Shown here piece after piece: positions 21,765 to 32,681 of a stretch of 35,854 bases of DNA (within the stretch, counting starts at the first letter, position 1; each line of letters opens with the position of its first letter). A model generated the notes under the pieces. It saw only the letters and a program-made list of their open reading frames with translations, did not search any database and was not told where the DNA came from. Where the stretch lies: NCBI GenBank assembly GCA_030612095.1, contig JAUWOO010000003.1:1-35854 (forward strand), in the 5' to 3' direction. A program made the translations under genes and the position numbers. This stretch comes from Thermoplasmatota archaeon. Its GTDB lineage: Archaea > Thermoplasmatota > E2 > DHVEG-1.

Positions 21765-22598
21765 TTATCCCTCTTGCACTGGCGAACGCCAATCAAGACC
21801 AGGGGTTCTAATGCCAACTTTTGGAATTAAAGGCGTTCTTCTCTTATGCTGGCTTTTAATTCTCATTTTTTTAACTCGCTCAACGTCAGATTGTTTCACA
21901 CCTGCAATATGTACTATCTCATCAATATTTATCTTCTGTTCTAAACCAGCAAGTATTTTATCCAAATCTTTGTAACTAAGTTGCAGTTCTTTTTCATCAG
22001 TCTGTCCCTTTATCAGACCAGCAGTTGGAGGTTTTGAGACTATTTCATCCGGAATTTTCAAATACCTGGCTAACTCCAAAACCTGGGTCTTATATAGATC
22101 ACCGATTGGCATAATATCAACACCACCATCCCCATACTTTGTAAAGTAACCAACAAGAATCTCTGATTTATTAGAGGTGCCACAAACAAGACTTCCAGCC
22201 ATATTAGCATATTCAAAAAGCAGTATCATCCTTGCTCTTGCCTTAATATTTGCAAGTGCACAATTATTTGGTTTTACAATACACTTACTTTCAATATTTT
22301 GTACAAGGGAGGTAATGTCTCTTTTTTCACATAACAAATCAAATTTTTTAACGAAGAGCCCCTGATGTTTAATATCTACATCTGGCGTAGCATCATCGGG
22401 TAAAAAAACACACTTCGTGTTTTCCTTTCCTAGCACGCCTTTACATAATAAAGCAGTAACTGCCGAATCAATACCACCCGAAAGTCCAATCACCACACTT
22501 TTACATCCGGAGTTTTCAACATGTGTTTTAATAAAATCCTTGATAATAATTGACACTTCTTCTGGATTTATAGATAAATTGATATCCAAACCAATCAC
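21765..22598 (-). CDS. nadE: NAD synthetase, ammonia-dependent type
   Basis: Amidates deamido-NAD with ammonia and ATP in the last step of NAD synthesis. The PP-loop SGGIDSAV is at residues 40-47, and CGTSNKSEILVGYFTKYGDGGVDIMPIGDLYKTQV is the family core. At 277 residues it has no glutaminase domain. It starts at GTG 22598, and GTGA overlaps the fumB TGA stop, so translation is coupled to fumB. The operon order is fumA-fumB-nadE. Confidence 0.95.
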   Translation of the reverse strand: MIGLDINLSINPEEVSIIIKDFIKTHVENSGCKSVVIGLSGGIDSAVTALLCKGVLGKENTKCVFLPDDATPDVDIKHQGLFVKKFDLLCEKRDITSLVQNIESKCIVKPNNCALANIKARARMILLFEYANMAGSLVCGTSNKSEILVGYFTKYGDGGVDIMPIGDLYKTQVLELARYLKIPDEIVSKPPTAGLIKGQTDEKELQLSYKDLDKILAGLEQKINIDEIVHIAGVKQSDVERVKKMRIKSQHKRRTPLIPKVGIRTPGLDWRSPVQEG

Positions 22599-23170
22599 CC
22601 TTTGCTCAACAATATGTTTTCATTCTTTTTAAGCTCCCTGTATATCGACTCACCATACGAATCTATTGCCACAACTAATGGACCAAATTCTTTTACCACA
22701 AATATCCAGATGGCCTCTGCCATGCCCAGTTCTTCAAGCCAATAAACTGCCCGAACTTCTTGTATGCTATCTGCGGCAAGTGCTCCTGCTCCACCTGTAT
22801 ATGACATATAGACTCCACTATGTTTCTGCAACGTTTTTCTGGTTCTTTCGCCCATGTCTCCTTTTCCAATTATAAGGTTTATACCATATTTTTCTATGAA
22901 TTTATCTTCAAATATTTCCATCCTACCGCTTGTGGTAGGACCAGCAGAAATAACCTTCCAACCATCCTTATTTTTTTTCATTAAAGGTCCACAATGATAG
23001 AGGGCCATAATAGAGGGATCAAATGGAATATCAATCTTATTTTGTTCAAGCATTAAATGGTGGGCTGCATCTCGAGCGGTAAAAACTGTGCCGGAAACAT
23101 ATACAATATCACCAATATGTAATTTTTTTATATCCTCAACGTCAACCGGAATGTCAAAATGATACTCCAA
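22595..23170 (-). CDS. fumB: Class I fumarase, beta (C-terminal) subunit
   Basis: The smaller half of the split class I fumarate hydratase (fumarate to malate). Typical segments are DIVYVSGTVFTARDAAHH, YHCGPLMKK, AGPTTSGRM and GKGDMG. The ORF track opens at ATG 23194 inside fumA, but a strong GGGAGGTT at the end of fumA lies 8 nt before TTG 23170, one base after the fumA stop, which I choose as start. Here FumB means the beta subunit, not the E. coli isozyme. It is a TCA-cycle or reductive-branch enzyme together with fumA. Confidence 0.92.
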   Translation of the reverse strand: MEYHFDIPVDVEDIKKLHIGDIVYVSGTVFTARDAAHHLMLEQNKIDIPFDPSIMALYHCGPLMKKNKDGWKVISAGPTTSGRMEIFEDKFIEKYGINLIIGKGDMGERTRKTLQKHSGVYMSYTGGAGALAADSIQEVRAVYWLEELGMAEAIWIFVVKEFGPLVVAIDSYGESIYRELKKNENILLSKG

Positions 23171-23171
23171 A

Positions 23172-24032
23172 TTATTCAACCTCCCATGTTCCATCAGAGT
23201 GAATAATCATGTTTGCTCTTCGGTCAGCCCAACACTGAACCACAAGACCAACAGGAAGACTTGCAGGATGCCTAGGTGCCTTCTCAACATGAACATCAAG
23301 AACAGTAGTTTTTCCACCAAGCCCCATCGGACCAATTCCACTTTGATTAATTCTTTTAATTAAATCTTCCTCCATTAAAGCAATTTTTTTATCTTGATGG
23401 CGAATGCCGACTGGTCTAAGAAGAGCAGTTTTTCCAAGCTTCATCGCTAGATCTGCCCCACCCCCAATACCTATTCCAACAACAGTAGGTGGACAAGGAT
23501 TTCCCCCAGCTTTTATCATCTCTTCTACAACAAAATCTTTAACACCTTCTATACCAACACCAGGTTTAAGCATAACAAGCTTACTCATGTTTTCACTGCC
23601 ACCGCCTTTTGGTATTGCCGTGATTATTACATCACTACCATCGACAAAATCCCAAGTTATTGCTGGAATATAATCACCAGTATTGTCTTTATGATTCTTG
23701 TGTGTAAACGGGTCAAACGTGTTAGGACGCAATGGAACTTGTTCGGTGGCAATTTTTACTGCATCTGTAATTTGTTTTTTTAATCTACCCACATATAGAT
23801 AATCAACACCAATTTTTACGAAAAACGTCTGAACGCCTGTATCCTGACACATCGGCCTCATTGTCTTTTTTGCAACATCTATGTTTTTAAGAATATTTTC
23901 TATCTGGATTTTTGCAATTCCCTCTTCGATATCATAGGCATTTTTTAAAGCTTTGACAACATCACTAGGAAGTTCTATCTCTGCTTTTTTGATAAGCTGA
24001 ACTATACCTCCCACTATACTTCCATAATCCAT
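23172..24032 (-). CDS. fumA: Class I fumarase, alpha (Fe-S) subunit
   Basis: The iron-sulfur subunit of two-subunit fumarase, 286 residues. The three 4Fe-4S ligands are visible: C62 (MCQDTG), C180 (GNPCPPT) and C267 (VQCWADRR). IGPMGLGGKTT and RHPASLPVG are also family-typical. Oxygen-sensitive class I enzymes fit an anaerobic or microaerobic life. It is the first gene of the fumA-fumB-nadE operon; no Shine-Dalgarno site is visible before the ATG. Confidence 0.95.
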   Translation of the reverse strand: MDYGSIVGGIVQLIKKAEIELPSDVVKALKNAYDIEEGIAKIQIENILKNIDVAKKTMRPMCQDTGVQTFFVKIGVDYLYVGRLKKQITDAVKIATEQVPLRPNTFDPFTHKNHKDNTGDYIPAITWDFVDGSDVIITAIPKGGGSENMSKLVMLKPGVGIEGVKDFVVEEMIKAGGNPCPPTVVGIGIGGGADLAMKLGKTALLRPVGIRHQDKKIALMEEDLIKRINQSGIGPMGLGGKTTVLDVHVEKAPRHPASLPVGLVVQCWADRRANMIIHSDGTWEVE

Positions 24033-24087: not shown

Positions 24088-24157
24088 AAAAGAATTTAAA
24101 AAAAATAAAAAAAGGGGTTGTGGATAGTAATTATCTAATTACTGTCTGTTATCCACA
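24088..24157 (-). terminator. acs terminator: compound stem-loop plus T-tract
   Basis: On the minus strand TGTGGATA pairs with TATCCACA (8 bp). Inside is a second 7-bp stem GTAATTA/TAATTAC with a 2-base loop. CCCC and then TTTTTTTATTTTTTTT follow, with TTTTTGTTTTTTT a little further on. The acs stop codon lies inside the structure. Confidence 0.7.
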
Positions 24158-26103
24158 AGACTGTCGACAATGGATGGGTCAGATAGAGTACTGATATCAC
24201 CAAGCTTATCGACCTCGCCTTCTGCAATTTTACGCAAGATACGGCGCATGATTTTTCCAGACCGGGTTTTTGGCAAACCTTCAGCATACTGGATTTTGTC
24301 AGGAGAAGCATGAGGGCCTATCTCTGATCTGACCAGTTTTACTAATTCCTTTGTAAGATTTTCATCGATACTCTCACCGGTATTTAAAGTCACATATGCA
24401 TATATTCCCTGACCCTTGATTTCGTGAGGATATCCAACAACTGCTGCCTCTGCAACCTTTGAATGTTTGCCAAGCGCACCTTCTACTTCAGCAGTGCCAA
24501 TTCTATGACCAGAGACGTTCATCACATCATCCACTCTACCAGTAATCCAGTAATAACCATCAGCATCTCTGAGACAACCATCGCCAGTGAAGAAATATCC
24601 AGGATACATGGTGAAATAAGTATCTTTGAACCTTTTGTGATCTCCATATACTGTTCTCATCATTCCTGGCCATGCCGTTTTGATTACAAGGTTACCTGAC
24701 ACATCATTGCCTTCCAGTTCTTTACCATTATCATCCAAAAGGATTGGTTCTATGCCGAAAAACGGAAGTGTTGCAGAACCCGGTTTGGTTGGTGTTGCAC
24801 CTGGAAGTGGCGTGATAAGAATTCCGCCTGTTTCAGTTTGCCACCAGGTATCTACAATAGGACAGCGTTCGCCACCTATAAGTTTGTAGTACCAGTTCCA
24901 TTCCCTAGATTTGATTGGTTCACCAACAGTACCAAGAATCTTAAGTGAGCTAAGGTCATATTTTGTAACCCAGTCATCACCCTCTTTCATGAGAGCTCTA
25001 AGTGCCGTAGGGGCAGTGTAAAAAGTGTTGACTTTGTGTTTTTCACAGATTGCCCAGAATCTACCCCAATCTGGATAGTTTGGAACACCTTCATACATCA
25101 TTGAAATAGCTTTGTTGTTTAGCGGACCATACACAATGTAAGAGTGGCCAGTAATCCACCCGATGTCAGCCGTACACCAATATATGTCTCCTTCGCGATA
25201 GTCAAAGATATACTTGTGAGTAACAGCAGCATATACTAGGTATCCGCCAGTTGTATGCAATACACCCTTTGGTTTTCCTGTCGAACCAGAAGTATAAAGA
25301 ATAAACAGTGGATCCTCGGCATCCATTTCCTCAGGCGGACATTTTGAATCAGCTTGTTCCATCTCTTCATGCCACCAATAGTCTTTGTCAGTCCAGTCGA
25401 CTTTTTCTCCGATGCGCTTTACAACTATTACAGATTCAATTGATGGGCATTCTTTTACTGATTTGTCAGCGGTGACTTTCATGTGAAGTGGCTTTGGTCC
25501 TCTTACTCCAGCATCTTGTGTGATAAGCATCTTACATTCAGAATCGTTAATCCTATCACGAAGCGAATCGGCAGAAAAACCACCAAAAACTATGGAGTGA
25601 ACGGCACCGATACGGGCACAAGCAAGCATAGATATGGCCAATTCAGGAACCATTTGCAAATAGATACAAACTCTATCACCTTTCTCAATGCCTTTTGATT
25701 TAAGGACATTAGCAAACTTCTCTACTTCAGTAAGAAGTTCTGTATATGTAAAGGTTTTTGATTGATCTGGTTCGTTTCCTTCCCATATAATTGCAATATC
25801 GTCTCCATGTCCGTTTTCAATATGTTTATCAAGGCAGTTGTAGGCTACGTTAAGTTTTGCCCCCTCAAACCACTTGATTTCCGCTTTTTTGAAATCATAT
25901 TTACAGACATTGCTCCATTTCTTATACCAACTTACATTCTCCTCAGCCATTTTTGCCCAGAACTCATCGGGATTTTCTATGGATTTTTTATACAGTTCGT
26001 TGTATTCATCCATGCTGCCGATGTAGGCCCTTGAGCTTATAGTCTTGTTAGGTTTAAAAACCTCAACTGTTTCTGTTTCTGCCATACTTTCCAAACTCTC
26101 CAT
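24139..26103 (-). CDS. acs: AMP-forming acetyl-CoA synthetase
   Basis: Activates acetate to acetyl-CoA through acetyl-AMP. The 654-residue protein has the Acs N-terminal domain, the P-loop-like [15 protein letters not shown] (about 270-284), [30 protein letters not shown] and the C-terminal GKIMRRILR. The last includes the catalytic Lys (about 617) that is acetylated in regulated Acs enzymes. Trp in the WWQTETG motif favours small acids such as acetate. It may supply acetyl-CoA to the nearby citrate module, or capture acetate. A TATA-like AATATAAAATG lies about 37 nt upstream. ATG 26121-type longer starts are not seen; an internal ATG six codons in is an alternative. Confidence 0.95.
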
Positions 26104-26183
26104 TCAGTTTAACTACTTTTTATATTTCACATTTTATATTTTTTAAGAAGAACCTAATTTTGAAGGTCCCCCAAGGATATATT

Positions 26184-26199
26184 AACCCCTTAGCGGGTT
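26184..26199. other. Short hairpin between acs and the duplicated regulator
   Basis: AACCC and GGGTT flank a six-base loop in the roughly 210-nt gap upstream of acs and downstream of the regulator gene. It could be a regulator terminator element or an acs operator. No T-tract is adjacent. Confidence 0.25.
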
Positions 26200-26313
26200 G
26201 CTCGAATAGAGTTTTAGTATATAATATTTTTTGTACGCATTTCCCCGTGTTGAATCCGGAAATTATTCTTCACCAACTATGGTAAAAAAACAAATAGATG
26301 GCGTTCTTCACTT

Positions 26314-27366
26314 TTAAATTTTCAATATTTTTTTTGCTATTGGAGCGAAATCAAAATCCTTTATGATAACTATCCTTTCAAACATATATTTTCTAATAAG
26401 TGGGGTGTATGATATGAAATCATTCTCCTTAAGAAAACGAATCTTGCGCATTTTATCCTCCTTATAGTCCTGATAACCAGGATACGCAGATATCATTATA
26501 ATTTCAAATCCCCTAATGGCAAGAAAGATTGTAGAAGCAGTATCAAGATTACAGATATCCTCTTTGCTAGGTAGTTTACGAGGATTAAATTTGAGGTGAC
26601 AAAATGACAGTATTTCAAAACCTAGTTTATTTAGATTTGGAAGAGCAATATTTCTTAGTAAATTCTCTTCAAAAAAATGTTTTTTCATTCTTGATATAGT
26701 ATGGCGAGATAATCCAACCGTTTCCCCCAATTGTTGAGTAGTATCATTTGGATATTCAACGATTGCAGAATAGACCTTTTTTTCCTTATCAGTTAATTCT
26801 ATATAATCTAGATGATCAAACCAATTCGCATCAGGTTCTATGTTTTCGATGTGATCTAAAGAGAATACTTTTTTTAAAATACGGGAAAAGTCAAAAAACC
26901 TGTTAATGTGACTTGTCTCAAATGGAAATATTACTTCAGTAGGATACTCATTTTCTAAGAGACCGGCTTTACCAAAAGTTTCAGTTCTTATTTCATTTAT
27001 TTTTCCAATATTGGTATAGTTTTTTGATAGGCTGATTGAAAAACCTTTTTCTTGCTCTCCTGCTGAAAAAAAGATTTCTTCAAATACTTCAATTGTTTTT
27101 TTTGTTGTCTTAATTCGCTCTTCTAGTGGTATAACTGGGTTGAACTGAGTATATATCACTGCCAAAAGTTCACACCCCAAATAATTTAACATTGGAACCG
27201 CAAGTTTTCGAAAAAACCCCTGATCAAATAACCTTCGTTTTATAGATGTAAGTGTAGAAAGTTTTACACCCATAATTGATGATAATTCACTATCATTTAA
27301 TCCAGGATATTTAACAAGTCCATAGAGGACTTTTTCCTCGTTTTTTGTTAAAGGCGTTTGCTTCAC
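26314..27366 (-). CDS. Transcription regulator built from two tandem winged-helix plus sensor units
   Basis: A 350-residue protein with clear internal duplication. Residues about 6-77 (LTKNEEKVLYGLVKYPG...) and about 191-262 (LTDKEKKVYSAIVEYPN...) align over about 70 residues at a 185-residue offset. Each has a helix-turn-helix, the [KN]LAVP/IALP loop, and a strand ending in FNP. A sensor-like segment follows each copy. It looks like a fused dimer of an Lrp/AsnC- or MarR-like winged-helix protein, but I do not recognise a named family. The start is GTG 27366, with a TATA-like box 25-34 nt upstream (leaderless). It is divergent from the acn-acl-icd operon and 210 nt before acs, suggesting control of either or both. 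Confidence 0.7.
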   Translation of the reverse strand: MKQTPLTKNEEKVLYGLVKYPGLNDSELSSIMGVKLSTLTSIKRRLFDQGFFRKLAVPMLNYLGCELLAVIYTQFNPVIPLEERIKTTKKTIEVFEEIFFSAGEQEKGFSISLSKNYTNIGKINEIRTETFGKAGLLENEYPTEVIFPFETSHINRFFDFSRILKKVFSLDHIENIEPDANWFDHLDYIELTDKEKKVYSAIVEYPNDTTQQLGETVGLSRHTISRMKKHFFEENLLRNIALPNLNKLGFEILSFCHLKFNPRKLPSKEDICNLDTASTIFLAIRGFEIIMISAYPGYQDYKEDKMRKIRFLKENDFISYTPLIRKYMFERIVIIKDFDFAPIAKKILKI

Positions 27367-27390
27367 AATTTCTAAGAATGATATGAGTCA

Positions 27391-27400
27391 ATATATAATT
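27391..27400 (-). promoter_or_regulatory. TATA-like box of the duplicated regulator
   Basis: On the minus strand AATTATATAT lies about 25-34 nt upstream of the GTG start, predicting a leaderless message. Confidence 0.4.
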
Positions 27401-27520
27401 TTCCCATTTTTCCAAAATAAATCAAATATTTTGTTATAACGCTCGAAATATGACAAAAATTAATCAAAAAAACATTTTGATAATATCAAGATTATTTATT
27501 TGTTTAATTCCGTGCAAAAG

Positions 27521-27530
27521 TTTATTAAAC
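27521..27530 (+). promoter_or_regulatory. TATA-like box of the acn-acl-icd operon
   Basis: TTTATTAAAC lies 46-55 nt before the preferred aconitase ATG at 27576. This predicts transcription start near 27550 and a leader of about 25 nt carrying GAGATGA as a ribosome site. It lies within the ORF-track extension and argues against the longer protein. Confidence 0.45.
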
Positions 27531-27575
27531 GCTTCGAGATACTTCGCAATTATCACCTACAATGAGATGATAAAC

Positions 27576-29525
27576 ATGGGAATGGCAATAACGGAAAAAA
27601 TACTTTCTAAACATGTAACAGAAGGCAAGCCAAAAAAGGGAAGTGAGGTAGGAATAAAAATTGATCAGACCCTTACTCAAGACGCAACAGGTACTATGGC
27701 ATACCTACAATTTGAGGCAATGGGTATTTCTAAGGTCAAAACTGAACTCTCAGTAAGCTATGTTGATCACAACACAGTTCAGATTGGTTTTGAGAACGCT
27801 GATGATCATAAATACCTTCAATCTGTCGCTGAAAAATATGGAATCGTTTACTCAAGAGCAGGTAATGGAATTTGTCATCAAGTACATCTAGAAAGATTTG
27901 GCAAACCTGGAAAGACACTACTTGGGTCTGATTCCCATACACCAACCGGTGGTGGAATAGGGATGATTGCTATTGGCGCGGGCGGTCTTGATGTCGCTGT
28001 GGCAATGGCAGGAGGGGCTTTCTACCTAACATATCCTAAAGTTATAAAGATTAACCTTACAGGAAAACTCAGACCATGGGTAGCAGCAAAAGACATCATT
28101 CTCAAGATTTTAGATATATTTACAACAAAGGGAAACGTCGGTTGCGTTTTTGAATATGGTGGCGAAGGAGTGAAAACCCTCTCAGTTCCCGAAAGAGCAA
28201 CAATAACTAATATGGGAGCAGAATGTGGAGTAACCACATCTGTGTTTCCAAGTGATGAGATAACCAAAGAATTTCTAAAAGCACAAGGTAGAGAAAAGGA
28301 CTGGATTGAACTCAAAGCAGATGATGATGCAGAATATGATAAAGTAGTAGACATCAATCTAAGTGAACTAGAACCACTTGCAGCAACGCCCCATAGTCCA
28401 GGCAACATAAAAACAGTAAGAGAACTAGAAGGAATGGACGTCGATCAAGTCTGTCTCGGAAGTTGTACAAACTCATCATACAAAGATTTGATGACCGTTG
28501 CCCACATTCTAAAGGGCAAGAAAAACAATACAAACGTTAGCTTTGTTGTTGCACCAGGATCAAAACAAGTATTGGAGAATATAATTAAAGATGGGGGATT
28601 TACAGACATTGTTTCTTCAGGTGCAAGAATTGCAGAGTCGGCCTGTGGTTTCTGCATAGGAAACAGTCAATCACCAAAAACAGATGCAGTGTCACTTAGA
28701 ACAAGTAACAGAAATTTCTTAAGTCGCTCGGGAACAAAAAGCGCACAGATCTATCTTGTAAGTCCCGAAACTGCTGCCGCAGCAGTAATAACCGGTAAAT
28801 TTACTGATCCAAGAGATCTTGAAAAAATTGGCATAAAATATCCATCCATCGATATGCCCGCTCAGTTTTACTTAGATGACAGCATGTTCATTTTCCCAAA
28901 GGAAAATTCAGGTAAAGTCAAGATATACCGGGGACCAAACATCGGTGATCCACCAGCAAGTGATCCAATCCCAGATACAATAGCTGGAGAAGTAACAATC
29001 AAAGTAGAAGACAAGATCACCACAGACCACATTATTCCCGCTGGAAGTAAGATGAAGTATAGATCAAACGTTCCAAAATATTCAGAATTTTTATTTGAAG
29101 TTGTCGATCCAACGTTTCATGACCGTGCTGAAAAAATACGCGACAGTGGAAAACACAACATAATTGTTGCTGGACTAAGTTACGGCCAAGGTTCCTCAAG
29201 AGAACACGCAGCATTGTGTCCAATGTACATGGGAGTAAAAGCAGTAATTGCAAAATCTCTTGAGAGAATTCATAAAGCCAATCTCATAAATTTTGGTATA
29301 ATTCCACTAACATTCAAAAACGAAAAAGATTACGATAGTATTGATCAAGCAGATGAACTAGAAATAACAAATATAAAAGAGATTCTTGAAGCAGGAAAAA
29401 CAGTAGTTGTAAGGAATAAGACTAAAGGATTAGAATTCAAGGTTGATTATGACCTTTCCGACAGGCAAAAAATGATTTTGCTTGCGGGAGGGACACTTGC
29501 TTACATGAAAAAGCAGGCAAAATGA
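27576..29525 (+). CDS. acn: Aconitate hydratase
   Basis: Interconverts citrate and isocitrate through a 4Fe-4S cluster. The 649-residue protein (shorter than AcnA, similar to mitochondrial-type or archaeal aconitases) has GSDSHTPTGGG, cluster ligands C297 (LGSCTNSSYKD), C357 and C360 (ACGFCIGN), and the swivel-domain GLSYGQGSSREHAAL. The track start at 27450 adds 42 residues spanning the probable TATA box; ATG 27576 follows GAGATGA, and ATG 27582 is an alternative. It is the first gene of the acn-aclB-aclA-icd operon; aclB begins 20 nt later. Confidence 0.94.
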   Translation: MGMAITEKILSKHVTEGKPKKGSEVGIKIDQTLTQDATGTMAYLQFEAMGISKVKTELSVSYVDHNTVQIGFENADDHKYLQSVAEKYGIVYSRAGNGICHQVHLERFGKPGKTLLGSDSHTPTGGGIGMIAIGAGGLDVAVAMAGGAFYLTYPKVIKINLTGKLRPWVAAKDIILKILDIFTTKGNVGCVFEYGGEGVKTLSVPERATITNMGAECGVTTSVFPSDEITKEFLKAQGREKDWIELKADDDAEYDKVVDINLSELEPLAATPHSPGNIKTVRELEGMDVDQVCLGSCTNSSYKDLMTVAHILKGKKNNTNVSFVVAPGSKQVLENIIKDGGFTDIVSSGARIAESACGFCIGNSQSPKTDAVSLRTSNRNFLSRSGTKSAQIYLVSPETAAAAVITGKFTDPRDLEKIGIKYPSIDMPAQFYLDDSMFIFPKENSGKVKIYRGPNIGDPPASDPIPDTIAGEVTIKVEDKITTDHIIPAGSKMKYRSNVPKYSEFLFEVVDPTFHDRAEKIRDSGKHNIIVAGLSYGQGSSREHAALCPMYMGVKAVIAKSLERIHKANLINFGIIPLTFKNEKDYDSIDQADELEITNIKEILEAGKTVVVRNKTKGLEFKVDYDLSDRQKMILLAGGTLAYMKKQAK

Positions 29526-29545: not shown

Positions 29546-30823
29546 ATGGCACAAAGAGGAGTAAGAGAATTTGACGCTAAAAAAATGCTAGCCACCTACT
29601 GGTCAGAGTATGTGAGCAAAGAGTTCAGTTACCCTGGAAAAGTTGCTCTTGTTGGACCAGAAACTAATATGGATAAACTAGCAAAAGAGGAGCCCTGGCT
29701 AAAAAAGGAAAAACTCGTAATAAAGCCGGATCAACTATTTGGAAAAAGAGGGAAGCACGGCCTAATCAAACTCAATGCATCTTTTGATGAAGCGAAGAAA
29801 TGGATAAAAGAACGCATAAACAAAGACACAAAGGTTGGAAAGGTAACGGGAACGCTTACACATTTTATTATTGAACCATTCACACCCCATGAAGGAGAAT
29901 ATTACATAGCAATCAAAAGCAATCGGGCTGGTGACACCATCTATTTCTCAAATCACGGTGGAGTTGACATAGAGTCGGTCTGGGATACCGTAGCAGAAAT
30001 ACCTGTTGGAATCACTGACGATATTGACAAGATAGATATTGAATCAAAACTGCCAAAAGACACACCAAAAGAAAGTAAAAAAATCATTACAGATTTCATA
30101 CGTGGACTTTTTAGATTTTACGCAGATCTTGGCTATGCATACCTGGAAATTAACCCATTTGCAATAACAGACAACAAAATTGTTCCATTAGATCTTGTAG
30201 CAAGAATTGATGACACTGCGTACTTTGAATGTCAATCTAAATGGGGAGATCTTACGTTTCCAGCACCGTTTGGTAGAAAACTCTCCAAAGAGGAATACTA
30301 TATCAAAGAACTAGATGAAAAAACCGGTGCATCACTTAAGCTCACCCTCCTCAACCCAAAAGGCAATGTATGGACAATGGTTGCAGGCGGTGGTGCCAGC
30401 GTTATTTATGCTGACACAATTGTTGATTTAGGATACAAAGACGACCTTGCAAATTATGGAGAATACAGTGGGAATCCAAACAGAGATTCGACCTACGAAT
30501 ATGCTAAAACAGTCCTTGATCTTATGACAAGAGAAAAAGCTCCAAAGGGAAAACCTAAGTTCCTTATAATTGGAGGAGGAATTGCAAACTTCACAGATAT
30601 TGCAAAAACATTTGCAGGAATCACTATGGCACTCAAAGATTACAAGAAAAAACTTCAAGAAATCAACGTCAAGATATACGTTAGAAGAGGCGGACCAAAC
30701 TATCAAGAGGGATTAAAGATAATGAAAAAACTCGGTGAAGAACTTGGTGTTCCAATAGAAGTATATGGACCTGAAATGCACATGACAAGAATTGTCCCAA
30801 TGGCTCTAGATGGAGGTAATTAA
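29546..30823 (+). CDS. aclB: ATP-citrate lyase, small (ATP-grasp) subunit
   Basis: The 425-residue subunit of heteromeric ATP-citrate lyase: citrate + CoA + ATP to acetyl-CoA + oxaloacetate + ADP + Pi. The opening REFDAKKMLATYW resembles the N-terminus of Chlorobium AclB and plant ACLA. An ATP-grasp region follows, with YAYLEINPFAI, and a C-terminal succinyl-CoA-synthetase-like part has GGGIANFTDIAKTF and RRGGPNYQEGLKIM, which sets ACL apart from succinyl-CoA synthetase beta. GGGAGA lies before the ATG. Nomenclature is reversed in plants, where this piece is called ACLA. The stop is one base before aclA. Confidence 0.93.
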   Translation: MAQRGVREFDAKKMLATYWSEYVSKEFSYPGKVALVGPETNMDKLAKEEPWLKKEKLVIKPDQLFGKRGKHGLIKLNASFDEAKKWIKERINKDTKVGKVTGTLTHFIIEPFTPHEGEYYIAIKSNRAGDTIYFSNHGGVDIESVWDTVAEIPVGITDDIDKIDIESKLPKDTPKESKKIITDFIRGLFRFYADLGYAYLEINPFAITDNKIVPLDLVARIDDTAYFECQSKWGDLTFPAPFGRKLSKEEYYIKELDEKTGASLKLTLLNPKGNVWTMVAGGGASVIYADTIVDLGYKDDLANYGEYSGNPNRDSTYEYAKTVLDLMTREKAPKGKPKFLIIGGGIANFTDIAKTFAGITMALKDYKKKLQEINVKIYVRRGGPNYQEGLKIMKKLGEELGVPIEVYGPEMHMTRIVPMALDGGN

Positions 30824-30824
30824 A

Positions 30825-32681
30825 ATGAAAGAAAGACCAGAATATGTATTATTCGATAAGGATACAAAGGCCATAGTATTTGGATATCAACAGAATGCAA
30901 TCCAACGTATGCTTGATTTTGATTACATATGCAGAAGAAAAGAGCCGTCTGTTACCTGTATTGTAAATCCCACTAGAGAAGGATATCATAAGTGCTTCTG
31001 GGGAACTAAAGATATAATGATCCCCATGTATAAAACAATTAAAGAGGCTGTAGAAAAACACCCAGATGCGGACGTCATGGTAAACTTTGCTTCCTTTAGA
31101 TCTGCATATCAAACGTCAAAAGAAGCTCTTGAAAGCAAAACTATACGAACAGTAGCAATTATTGCCGAAGGAGTTCCAGAAAGAAGATCAAGAGAATTAA
31201 TCAAGATCGCAAACGAAAAGAAAAAATGGATAATCGGCCCTGCGACAGTTGGAGGTATTGCTGGTGGTGGATTCAGAATAGGAAACACCGCAGGAATGCT
31301 TGACAACATTATTGCCTGTCGTCTTCACAGACCTGGCAGTGTTGCATATGTATCGAAATCAGGCGGCCTATCAAATGAGTTGAATAACATCATTGCTCGT
31401 AACACAGATGGTGTCCGTGAAGGGGTTGCAATTGGCGGTGACCGATATCCTGGATCGACATTCATTGAACATATTGAGAGGTACGAAAAAAATCCCGATA
31501 TCAAAATGATAGTACTATTGGGAGAGGTCGGCGGTGTTGATGAATATGTTGTTGTTGACGCATTAAAATCTGGAAAAATAAAGAAACCTCTCGTTGCATG
31601 GTGTATTGGAACATGTTCAAAGGTATTCCCTGCAGAAGTTCAATTTGGTCATGCAGGCGCAAGGGCTGGAGCTGAAAGAGAAACAGCAGATGTAAAAAAT
31701 AAAGCGCTAAAAGAGGCAGGAGCCGTCGTCCCAGACTCCTTTGAAGATTTTGACAAGAAAATCAAAGAAACTTTTGATAAAGAAGTAAAAGCGGGAAGAA
31801 TAAAACCAATGCCCGATATAGAACCTCCAAAGATACCCCTTGATTATAAGGTTGCTATTCGTGATGGTATTGTAAGAAGACCATCTGAATTCATAAGTAC
31901 AATTTCAGATGATCGCGGCGAAGAACTCATGTACTGTGGCGTTCCAATCAGCAAGATATTCGAGGATGATTATGGACTTGGTGGTGTACTTGGTCTACTT
32001 TGGTTCAAGAAGAAACTTCCGAAATGGAGTACTGATTTCCTTGAGATGGTTGTCCTTCTTACGGCAGATCATGGCCCAGCTGTATCTGGAGCACATAATG
32101 CAATTGTTACTGCAAGGGCAGGAAAAGACTTGATTTCATCACTTGTTAGTGGTCTTCTCACCATTGGACCAAGATTTGGAGGGGCAGTGAAAGGGGCCGC
32201 AGATCATTTCACTTCATATTGTGATGCAGGACATCCACCAGAATTCATGGTAAAGGATATGAAAATCAAAAACATCAACATCCAAGGTATCGGCCATAGA
32301 ATCAAATCGGTCACAAATCCAGACAAACGTGTGGAACTTCTGAAAGACTATGCAAAAAAGAATTTCCCGATGACGCCATATCTGGATTATGCTATTGAAG
32401 TGGAAAAAATAACTACTGCAAAGCGAGGTAATCTCATCCTCAATGTTGATGGGTGTATTGGTATCCTTTGTTGCGATATGTTTAGAAGTATAGGTTACAC
32501 AAAAGAAGAAGTAAAAGAATTTGTCTCACTTGGAACACTTAATGCCCTATTTGTCCTAGGGCGCAGTATTGGATTTATGGGGCATATAATGGATCAGAAG
32601 AGACTTAAAACAGGATTATACAGGCATCCGTGGGATGACATTGCGTATATGATGCCAGATAAACCTGAGAAGGTGAAGTAA
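30825..32681 (+). CDS. aclA: ATP-citrate lyase, large (CoA-ligase plus citryl-CoA lyase) subunit
   Basis: The 618-residue partner of AclB. The N-terminal CoA-binding/ligase half carries the phosphohistidine H276 in QFGHAGARAG. The C-terminal half (from about 360) is a citrate-synthase-like lyase domain with SAHNAIVTARAGKDL, GPRFGGAVKGAADHF and NVDGCIGILCCDMF. The same two-part fusion occurs in Chlorobium AclA and the C-terminal part of animal ACLY. I use ATG 30825, 6 nt after GGAGGTAAT inside the aclB end; the ORF track adds five residues. The stop directly abuts the icd start. Confidence 0.95.
   Translation: MKERPEYVLFDKDTKAIVFGYQQNAIQRMLDFDYICRRKEPSVTCIVNPTREGYHKCFWGTKDIMIPMYKTIKEAVEKHPDADVMVNFASFRSAYQTSKEALESKTIRTVAIIAEGVPERRSRELIKIANEKKKWIIGPATVGGIAGGGFRIGNTAGMLDNIIACRLHRPGSVAYVSKSGGLSNELNNIIARNTDGVREGVAIGGDRYPGSTFIEHIERYEKNPDIKMIVLLGEVGGVDEYVVVDALKSGKIKKPLVAWCIGTCSKVFPAEVQFGHAGARAGAERETADVKNKALKEAGAVVPDSFEDFDKKIKETFDKEVKAGRIKPMPDIEPPKIPLDYKVAIRDGIVRRPSEFISTISDDRGEELMYCGVPISKIFEDDYGLGGVLGLLWFKKKLPKWSTDFLEMVVLLTADHGPAVSGAHNAIVTARAGKDLISSLVSGLLTIGPRFGGAVKGAADHFTSYCDAGHPPEFMVKDMKIKNINIQGIGHRIKSVTNPDKRVELLKDYAKKNFPMTPYLDYAIEVEKITTAKRGNLILNVDGCIGILCCDMFRSIGYTKEEVKEFVSLGTLNALFVLGRSIGFMGHIMDQKRLKTGLYRHPWDDIAYMMPDKPEKVK

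Follow-up and report, generated by a model that had tools for sequence, protein, structure and literature searches.

A probable single-chain tandem Lrp/AsnC-type regulator linked to TCA-cycle genes in Thermoplasmatota archaea

The archaeal Lrp/AsnC (feast/famine) regulators, such as Ptr2, Ss-LrpB, LysM and PH0140, are built from an HTH + RAM unit. The sites bound by archaeal Lrp proteins are separated by two or three helical turns, the activators bind immediately upstream of the BRE, several members control 2-oxoacid:ferredoxin oxidoreductases, and 2-oxoglutarate is sensed by a stand-alone RAM protein (PMC2995911). A fusion of two Lrp-fold domains is known from NirDL (PMC4835899), and HxYxR has been described as the active-site motif of the siroheme decarboxylases AhbA/B (PMC4145669).

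In the window, i.e. the whole stretch of 35,854 nucleotides that was analyzed, the ORF at positions 26314..27366 (minus strand, GTG start) encodes a protein of 350 aa and is present as a single copy in its own genome (1.5 Mb, 141 contigs). This protein resembles the archaeal Lrp/AsnC regulators in its HTH + RAM unit, in putative sites that show the same kind of spacing and lie just upstream of a BRE, and probably in acting on central metabolism, 2-oxoacid:ferredoxin oxidoreductases included, as judged here from the neighboring genes. Unlike them, it carries two units per chain, is PF01037-negative, has an HTH that scores with TrmB/MarR models, and is associated with a non-palindromic motif. 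With a probability of about 0.75, it is a single-chain Lrp/AsnC-type transcription factor that arose by one ancient tandem duplication and controls the adjacent TCA operon(s). It apparently belongs to a coherent, undescribed subfamily of a known kind of regulator, and searches of the open-licence literature turned up no description of a tandem Lrp regulator belonging to it.

The original prediction described a tandem duplication resembling a fused dimer, with a repeat at residues 6-77 and 191-262. When the chain was cut at residue 184 and its two parts were compared, residues 6-170 aligned with residues 191-350 over 168 residues (29% identity, 48% positives, with an E value of 3e-17 from this one comparison). 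The repeat was therefore confirmed, and its unit is the whole half. The N-terminal unit (residues 1-170; 26857..27366, minus strand), delimited by the secondary structure of the model and by conservation in the alignment, comprises an HTH (8-48) and a RAM-like part (67-157), and contains the conserved sequence GEQ[ED]KGFS. The C-terminal unit (residues 188-350; 26317..26805, minus strand), for which a profile match to PH0140 was also available, comprises an HTH (193-233) with SRHT[IV][SA]R and a RAM-like part (252-336). The recognition-helix regions of both halves are conserved in the alignment of relatives, and Pfam HTH models matched both halves.

An AlphaFold model based on an alignment of 31 relatives (A1) had a mean pLDDT of 86.7 and a pTM of 0.86; a further alignment (A2), in which one row (L017) was misframed, was left out of the analysis. 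In each half the predicted order was helix-helix-helix, strand, beta-alpha-beta-beta-alpha-beta, followed by one more strand and helix, which is the Lrp/AsnC layout and thus indicates two complete HTH + RAM units in one chain. The predicted folds of the two halves matched, whereas a failure of the halves to superpose had been set beforehand as one of two outcomes that would refute the original prediction. While no named family had been recognized at that stage, the unit can be assigned to a known fold family, that of Lrp/AsnC (HTH + RAM). The sequence profile independently matched PH0140 over HTH + RAM (residues 184-316, E 1e-4). At the regulator gene a search with PF01037 (RAM, AsnC_trans_reg) gave no match, and the AsnC HTH model (PF13404) matched weakly in 6 of 31 members (best E 0.0022), so the kinship with Lrp rests on the fold and the weak profile match. 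The pTM of 0.86 and the whole-chain match to NirDL at TM 0.50-0.55 suggest that the RAM domains may pair within the chain.

Two other identities were weighed against this assignment. The top whole-chain match in a Foldseek search of the PDB was the siroheme decarboxylase NirDL (4CZC, 4CH7; E 8e-8, TM 0.50/0.55), followed by Lrp/AsnC monomers, which aligned with a single half (target TM as high as 0.72). NirDL likewise has two fused Lrp-fold units, and the protein could be conceived as an enzyme of this type (fused NirD/NirL, AhbA/AhbB) with a leftover HTH; but NirDL is an enzyme with a different gene context, the HxYxR motif of AhbA/B occurs in 0 of 32 sequences of the regulator family, and the neighbors are TCA genes, with no haem gene recognized among them. 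The Pfam NirDL-like HTH model also had no match here, yet matches another tandem protein, described below. On the absence of HxYxR this identity was rejected as the least probable of all those considered, and the 350-aa protein is, for the same reason, probably a regulator.

A duplicated member of the TrmB or MarR family is scarcely more probable. The Pfam TrmB and MarR HTH models did exceed their cut-offs in the window protein, and the TrmB HTH (PF01978) matched all 31 members at E<=0.01, but the match is limited to the HTH and the remainder folds as beta-alpha-beta-beta-alpha-beta. TrmB proteins have a sugar-binding effector domain, and MarR proteins form a helical dimer. No Pfam match to the TrmB effector domain was found, nor any naming match in the rest of each half beyond the HTHs, and the predicted fold there is RAM-like. 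Since Foldseek returned Lrp/AsnC and not TrmB or MarR, membership of these families beyond the HTH was rejected. The sugar-binding domain is missing from some TrmB proteins (PMC9426492).

The regulator family was found in 35 of the 45 genomes of its GTDB family, in 39 of 52 in the order and in 105 of 390 sampled from the phylum. The 52 named genome contigs came from Thermoplasmatota, Thermoplasmata, Euryarchaeota or unnamed archaeal MAGs, together with two Asgard records (L090 Harpocratesius and L119 Lokiarchaeota). Full-length matches were nearly all tandem (~340-360 aa), and no single-unit ancestor was seen among the matches to full-length queries. A distant homologue (L166) is present in a single-contig genome of 1.49 Mb (G084) that may come from a cultured species. 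A tree of the halves placed the N units in a single clade (100/100); the C units were near-monophyletic, with C_L168 unplaced. This topology fits one ancient duplication that preceded the spread of the family.

A second tandem Lrp protein of ~325 aa was observed near fumB/acs in clade A (L073:9896-10882(-); also L071, L077, L078, L082 and L083). Like the regulator it has two HTH + RAM-like units per chain and a nearby locus, but unlike the regulator it is matched twice by the canonical AsnC HTH. Its halves cluster together in the tree, apart from the regulator family, and it apparently originated from a duplication of its own. The PF01037 search also detected five ORFs of 81-90 aa in the window's own genome that resemble stand-alone RAM proteins (L220-L224; G000 C54, C70, C28, C10 and C53).

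As described in the original prediction, the regulator gene shares an intergenic region of 209 bp (27367-27575) with acn-aclB-aclA-icd and lies just upstream of acs, from which it is separated by 210 bp. The divergent operon, on the plus strand, begins with acn (aconitate hydratase, 27576..29525). The mechanical start of this ORF at 27450 was judged to be 126 bases too early because NCBIfam aconitase models match only from residue 43 onward, and was relocated by homology. It is followed by two ATP-citrate lyase subunits, namely an aclB-like subunit related to succinyl-CoA-ligase beta (29546..30823), recognized as belonging to ATP-citrate lyase from the gene pair and the domain make-up, and an aclA-like subunit with CoA ligase alpha and citryl-CoA lyase domains (30810..32681), and by icd (monomeric NADP-isocitrate dehydrogenase, TIGR00178; 32682..34913). 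On the minus strand, the regulator gene is followed by acs (acetate--CoA ligase, 24139..26103) and the genes for fumarate hydratase alpha (23172..24032) and beta (22595..23194). The gap between the regulator gene and acs contains a short inverted repeat, AACCCCTTAGCGGGTT (26180-26205), possibly a terminator.

Gene order around the regulator was compared among relatives, and the linkage to acn/acl and acs was retained, so that the second refuting outcome, a neighborhood not conserved in relatives, did not occur either. A TCA or acetyl-CoA gene lay no more than three genes away in 31 of the 32 loci of the order, the single exception (L080) stopping at a contig edge, in 17 of the 32 other Thermoplasmatota loci and in neither of the two Asgard loci, where chance would give ~5% by our own rough estimate. 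In clade A, which includes the window, aclA-aclB-(idh)-acn or acn-aclB-aclA-icd is divergent from regulator-acs-fumA-fumB. In clade B (enzyme names from NCBIfam), korC-korB-korA-korD-frdA-sdhB is divergent from regulator-sucC-sucD. Class-level relatives have korDABC beside the regulator, with hdrA in some, and phylum-level relatives have acn with aclAB or idh. The linkage is thus to TCA genes in general and not only to acn, acl and acs, the other clades having kor, frd and sucCD. A korA of the clade B type was present in 1 of 15 clade A genomes and missing from the other 14; many clade A genomes carry acl-acn and acs in its place. One family apparently holds two versions of the TCA cycle. The regulator is most likely a dedicated switch of the adjoining TCA-cycle genes.

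Motif discovery upstream of the regulator gene detected TTTTCTCATTTTAACAAA, located ~50 bp before the start and touching the TATA box. With the matrix anchored on this first site, a four-site array with a spacing of 30-31 bp was found at 0, -31, -61 and -92 in alternating orientation, the sites at -31 and -92 being inverted. In the window, putative site 1 (TTTTCCCATTTTTCCAAA, 27399..27416, plus strand, 20.5 bits) abuts the BRE/TATA of the regulator gene, whose TATA-like box (ATTATATA read on the minus strand, 27392..27399) was located by eye at a position common to the upstream regions of relatives. Putative site 2 (TTCGAGCGTTATAACAAA, 27430..27447, minus strand, score 2.8) is inverted and lies 31 bp from site 1. 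The places that sites 3 (27460..27477, plus strand) and 4 (27491..27508, minus strand) occupy in relatives are weak in the window (-6.9 at best shift and -6.5, respectively). Site 4 is beside the acn promoter, for which a TATA-like box common to clade A intergenic regions was recognized by eye (TTTATTAAA, 27521..27529, plus strand).

Scores above 0 were obtained at -31, -61 and -92 in 21, 12 and 15 of 25 loci, respectively, compared with 1.3% at control offsets, the 25 loci being related sequences and hence not independent trials. When the clades were taken apart, these offsets ranked 1, 4 and 2 (clade A) and 1, 3 and 2 (clade B) of 248. In a control on the pooled set, the permuted matrices themselves reached z values of up to 8.7, and the -31 peak exceeded all 300 permutations. 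The -61 and -92 peaks were not significant singly on that set, and are carried by the agreement between clades A and B. Site 1 overlaps the promoter BRE, which is conserved for reasons of its own, and the array pattern remained after the BRE-like part of the matrix was dropped. All four sites share one nearly invariant C. The motif is asymmetric, as follows from the column information and from a low correlation with the reverse complement, which was 0.3-0.5 at sites 1, 2 and 4 but ambiguous at site 3 (0.81 at a shifted centre). The idea that the two heads read asymmetric operators thereby gained modest support, in that the conserved motif of the putative operator is non-palindromic.

From these data we infer DNA binding by the protein with the motif as its site, pairing within the chain, action as an activator, and an effector. 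The two RAM domains would most likely pair within the chain as separate subunits do in an Lrp dimer, so that one polypeptide would present two non-identical HTH heads, and these may bind the asymmetric AT-rich site. Several molecules could then assemble on the four sites at three-helical-turn spacing in the intergenic region and contact the BRE/TATA elements at each of the two divergent promoters. This assembly would be set by a central metabolite bound in the RAM domains, and would in turn switch the divergent operon and the regulator gene itself; that the metabolite is 2-oxoglutarate or an amino acid is a guess, made because the neighboring operons share the 2-oxoglutarate/acetyl-CoA node. 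Activation is favored over repression only because of the placement of the sites. The anatomy of the locus fits the archaeal Lrp scheme, except that here a single fused chain would stand for the dimer.

The protein might instead be purely autoregulatory or act elsewhere, the TCA linkage being old synteny and the array a product of two facing AT-rich promoters. Such an account is unlikely, though clearly better placed than the two rival identities above. Site 1 does contain a BRE-like stretch, and some relatives have no TCA neighbor (about half of those outside the order and both Asgard contigs). When ten clade B genomes were searched throughout for the pattern, 104 matches were obtained, compared with 55 in the reversed control; 3 of the 6 exact matches were in the regulator's own promoter, and no clear wider regulon of the motif emerged. 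However, the two clades differ in the divergent partner (acn in one, sdhB-frdA-kor in the other) but have retained both the TCA theme and the array, which was found separately in each of them. Sites 2 and 3 also adjoin no TATA box; the outermost site is close to that of the divergent gene.

A broader reading can be offered tentatively, at somewhat less than even odds. The protein would regulate the 2-oxoglutarate/acetyl-CoA part of the TCA cycle in archaea throughout the phylum, as a single-chain Lrp pseudo-dimer whose two diverged heads read an alternating three-turn array of asymmetric operators that serves two divergent promoters, the array being kept while the operon was exchanged. No dedicated TCA-cycle regulator for these uncultured archaea was found in the open-licence literature. 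Fusion of an Lrp dimer lets the two heads diverge, which is impossible for a homodimer, and offers a clean test of the evolution of operator asymmetry. Members of the family are easily tracked in metagenomes and could serve as markers of the TCA branch that is regulated in a given lineage.

By eye, no obvious array was seen upstream of the regulator in class-level relatives, where some of the regions lie inside coding sequence. The acn promoters of clade B, which are apart from the regulator, had no array, only two isolated matches in one locus. These clade B acn upstream regions (L199-L207, L212) carry another conserved block, ~ACAAATAATTTAAGTA..TATATTACC..TACCC, perhaps another operator.
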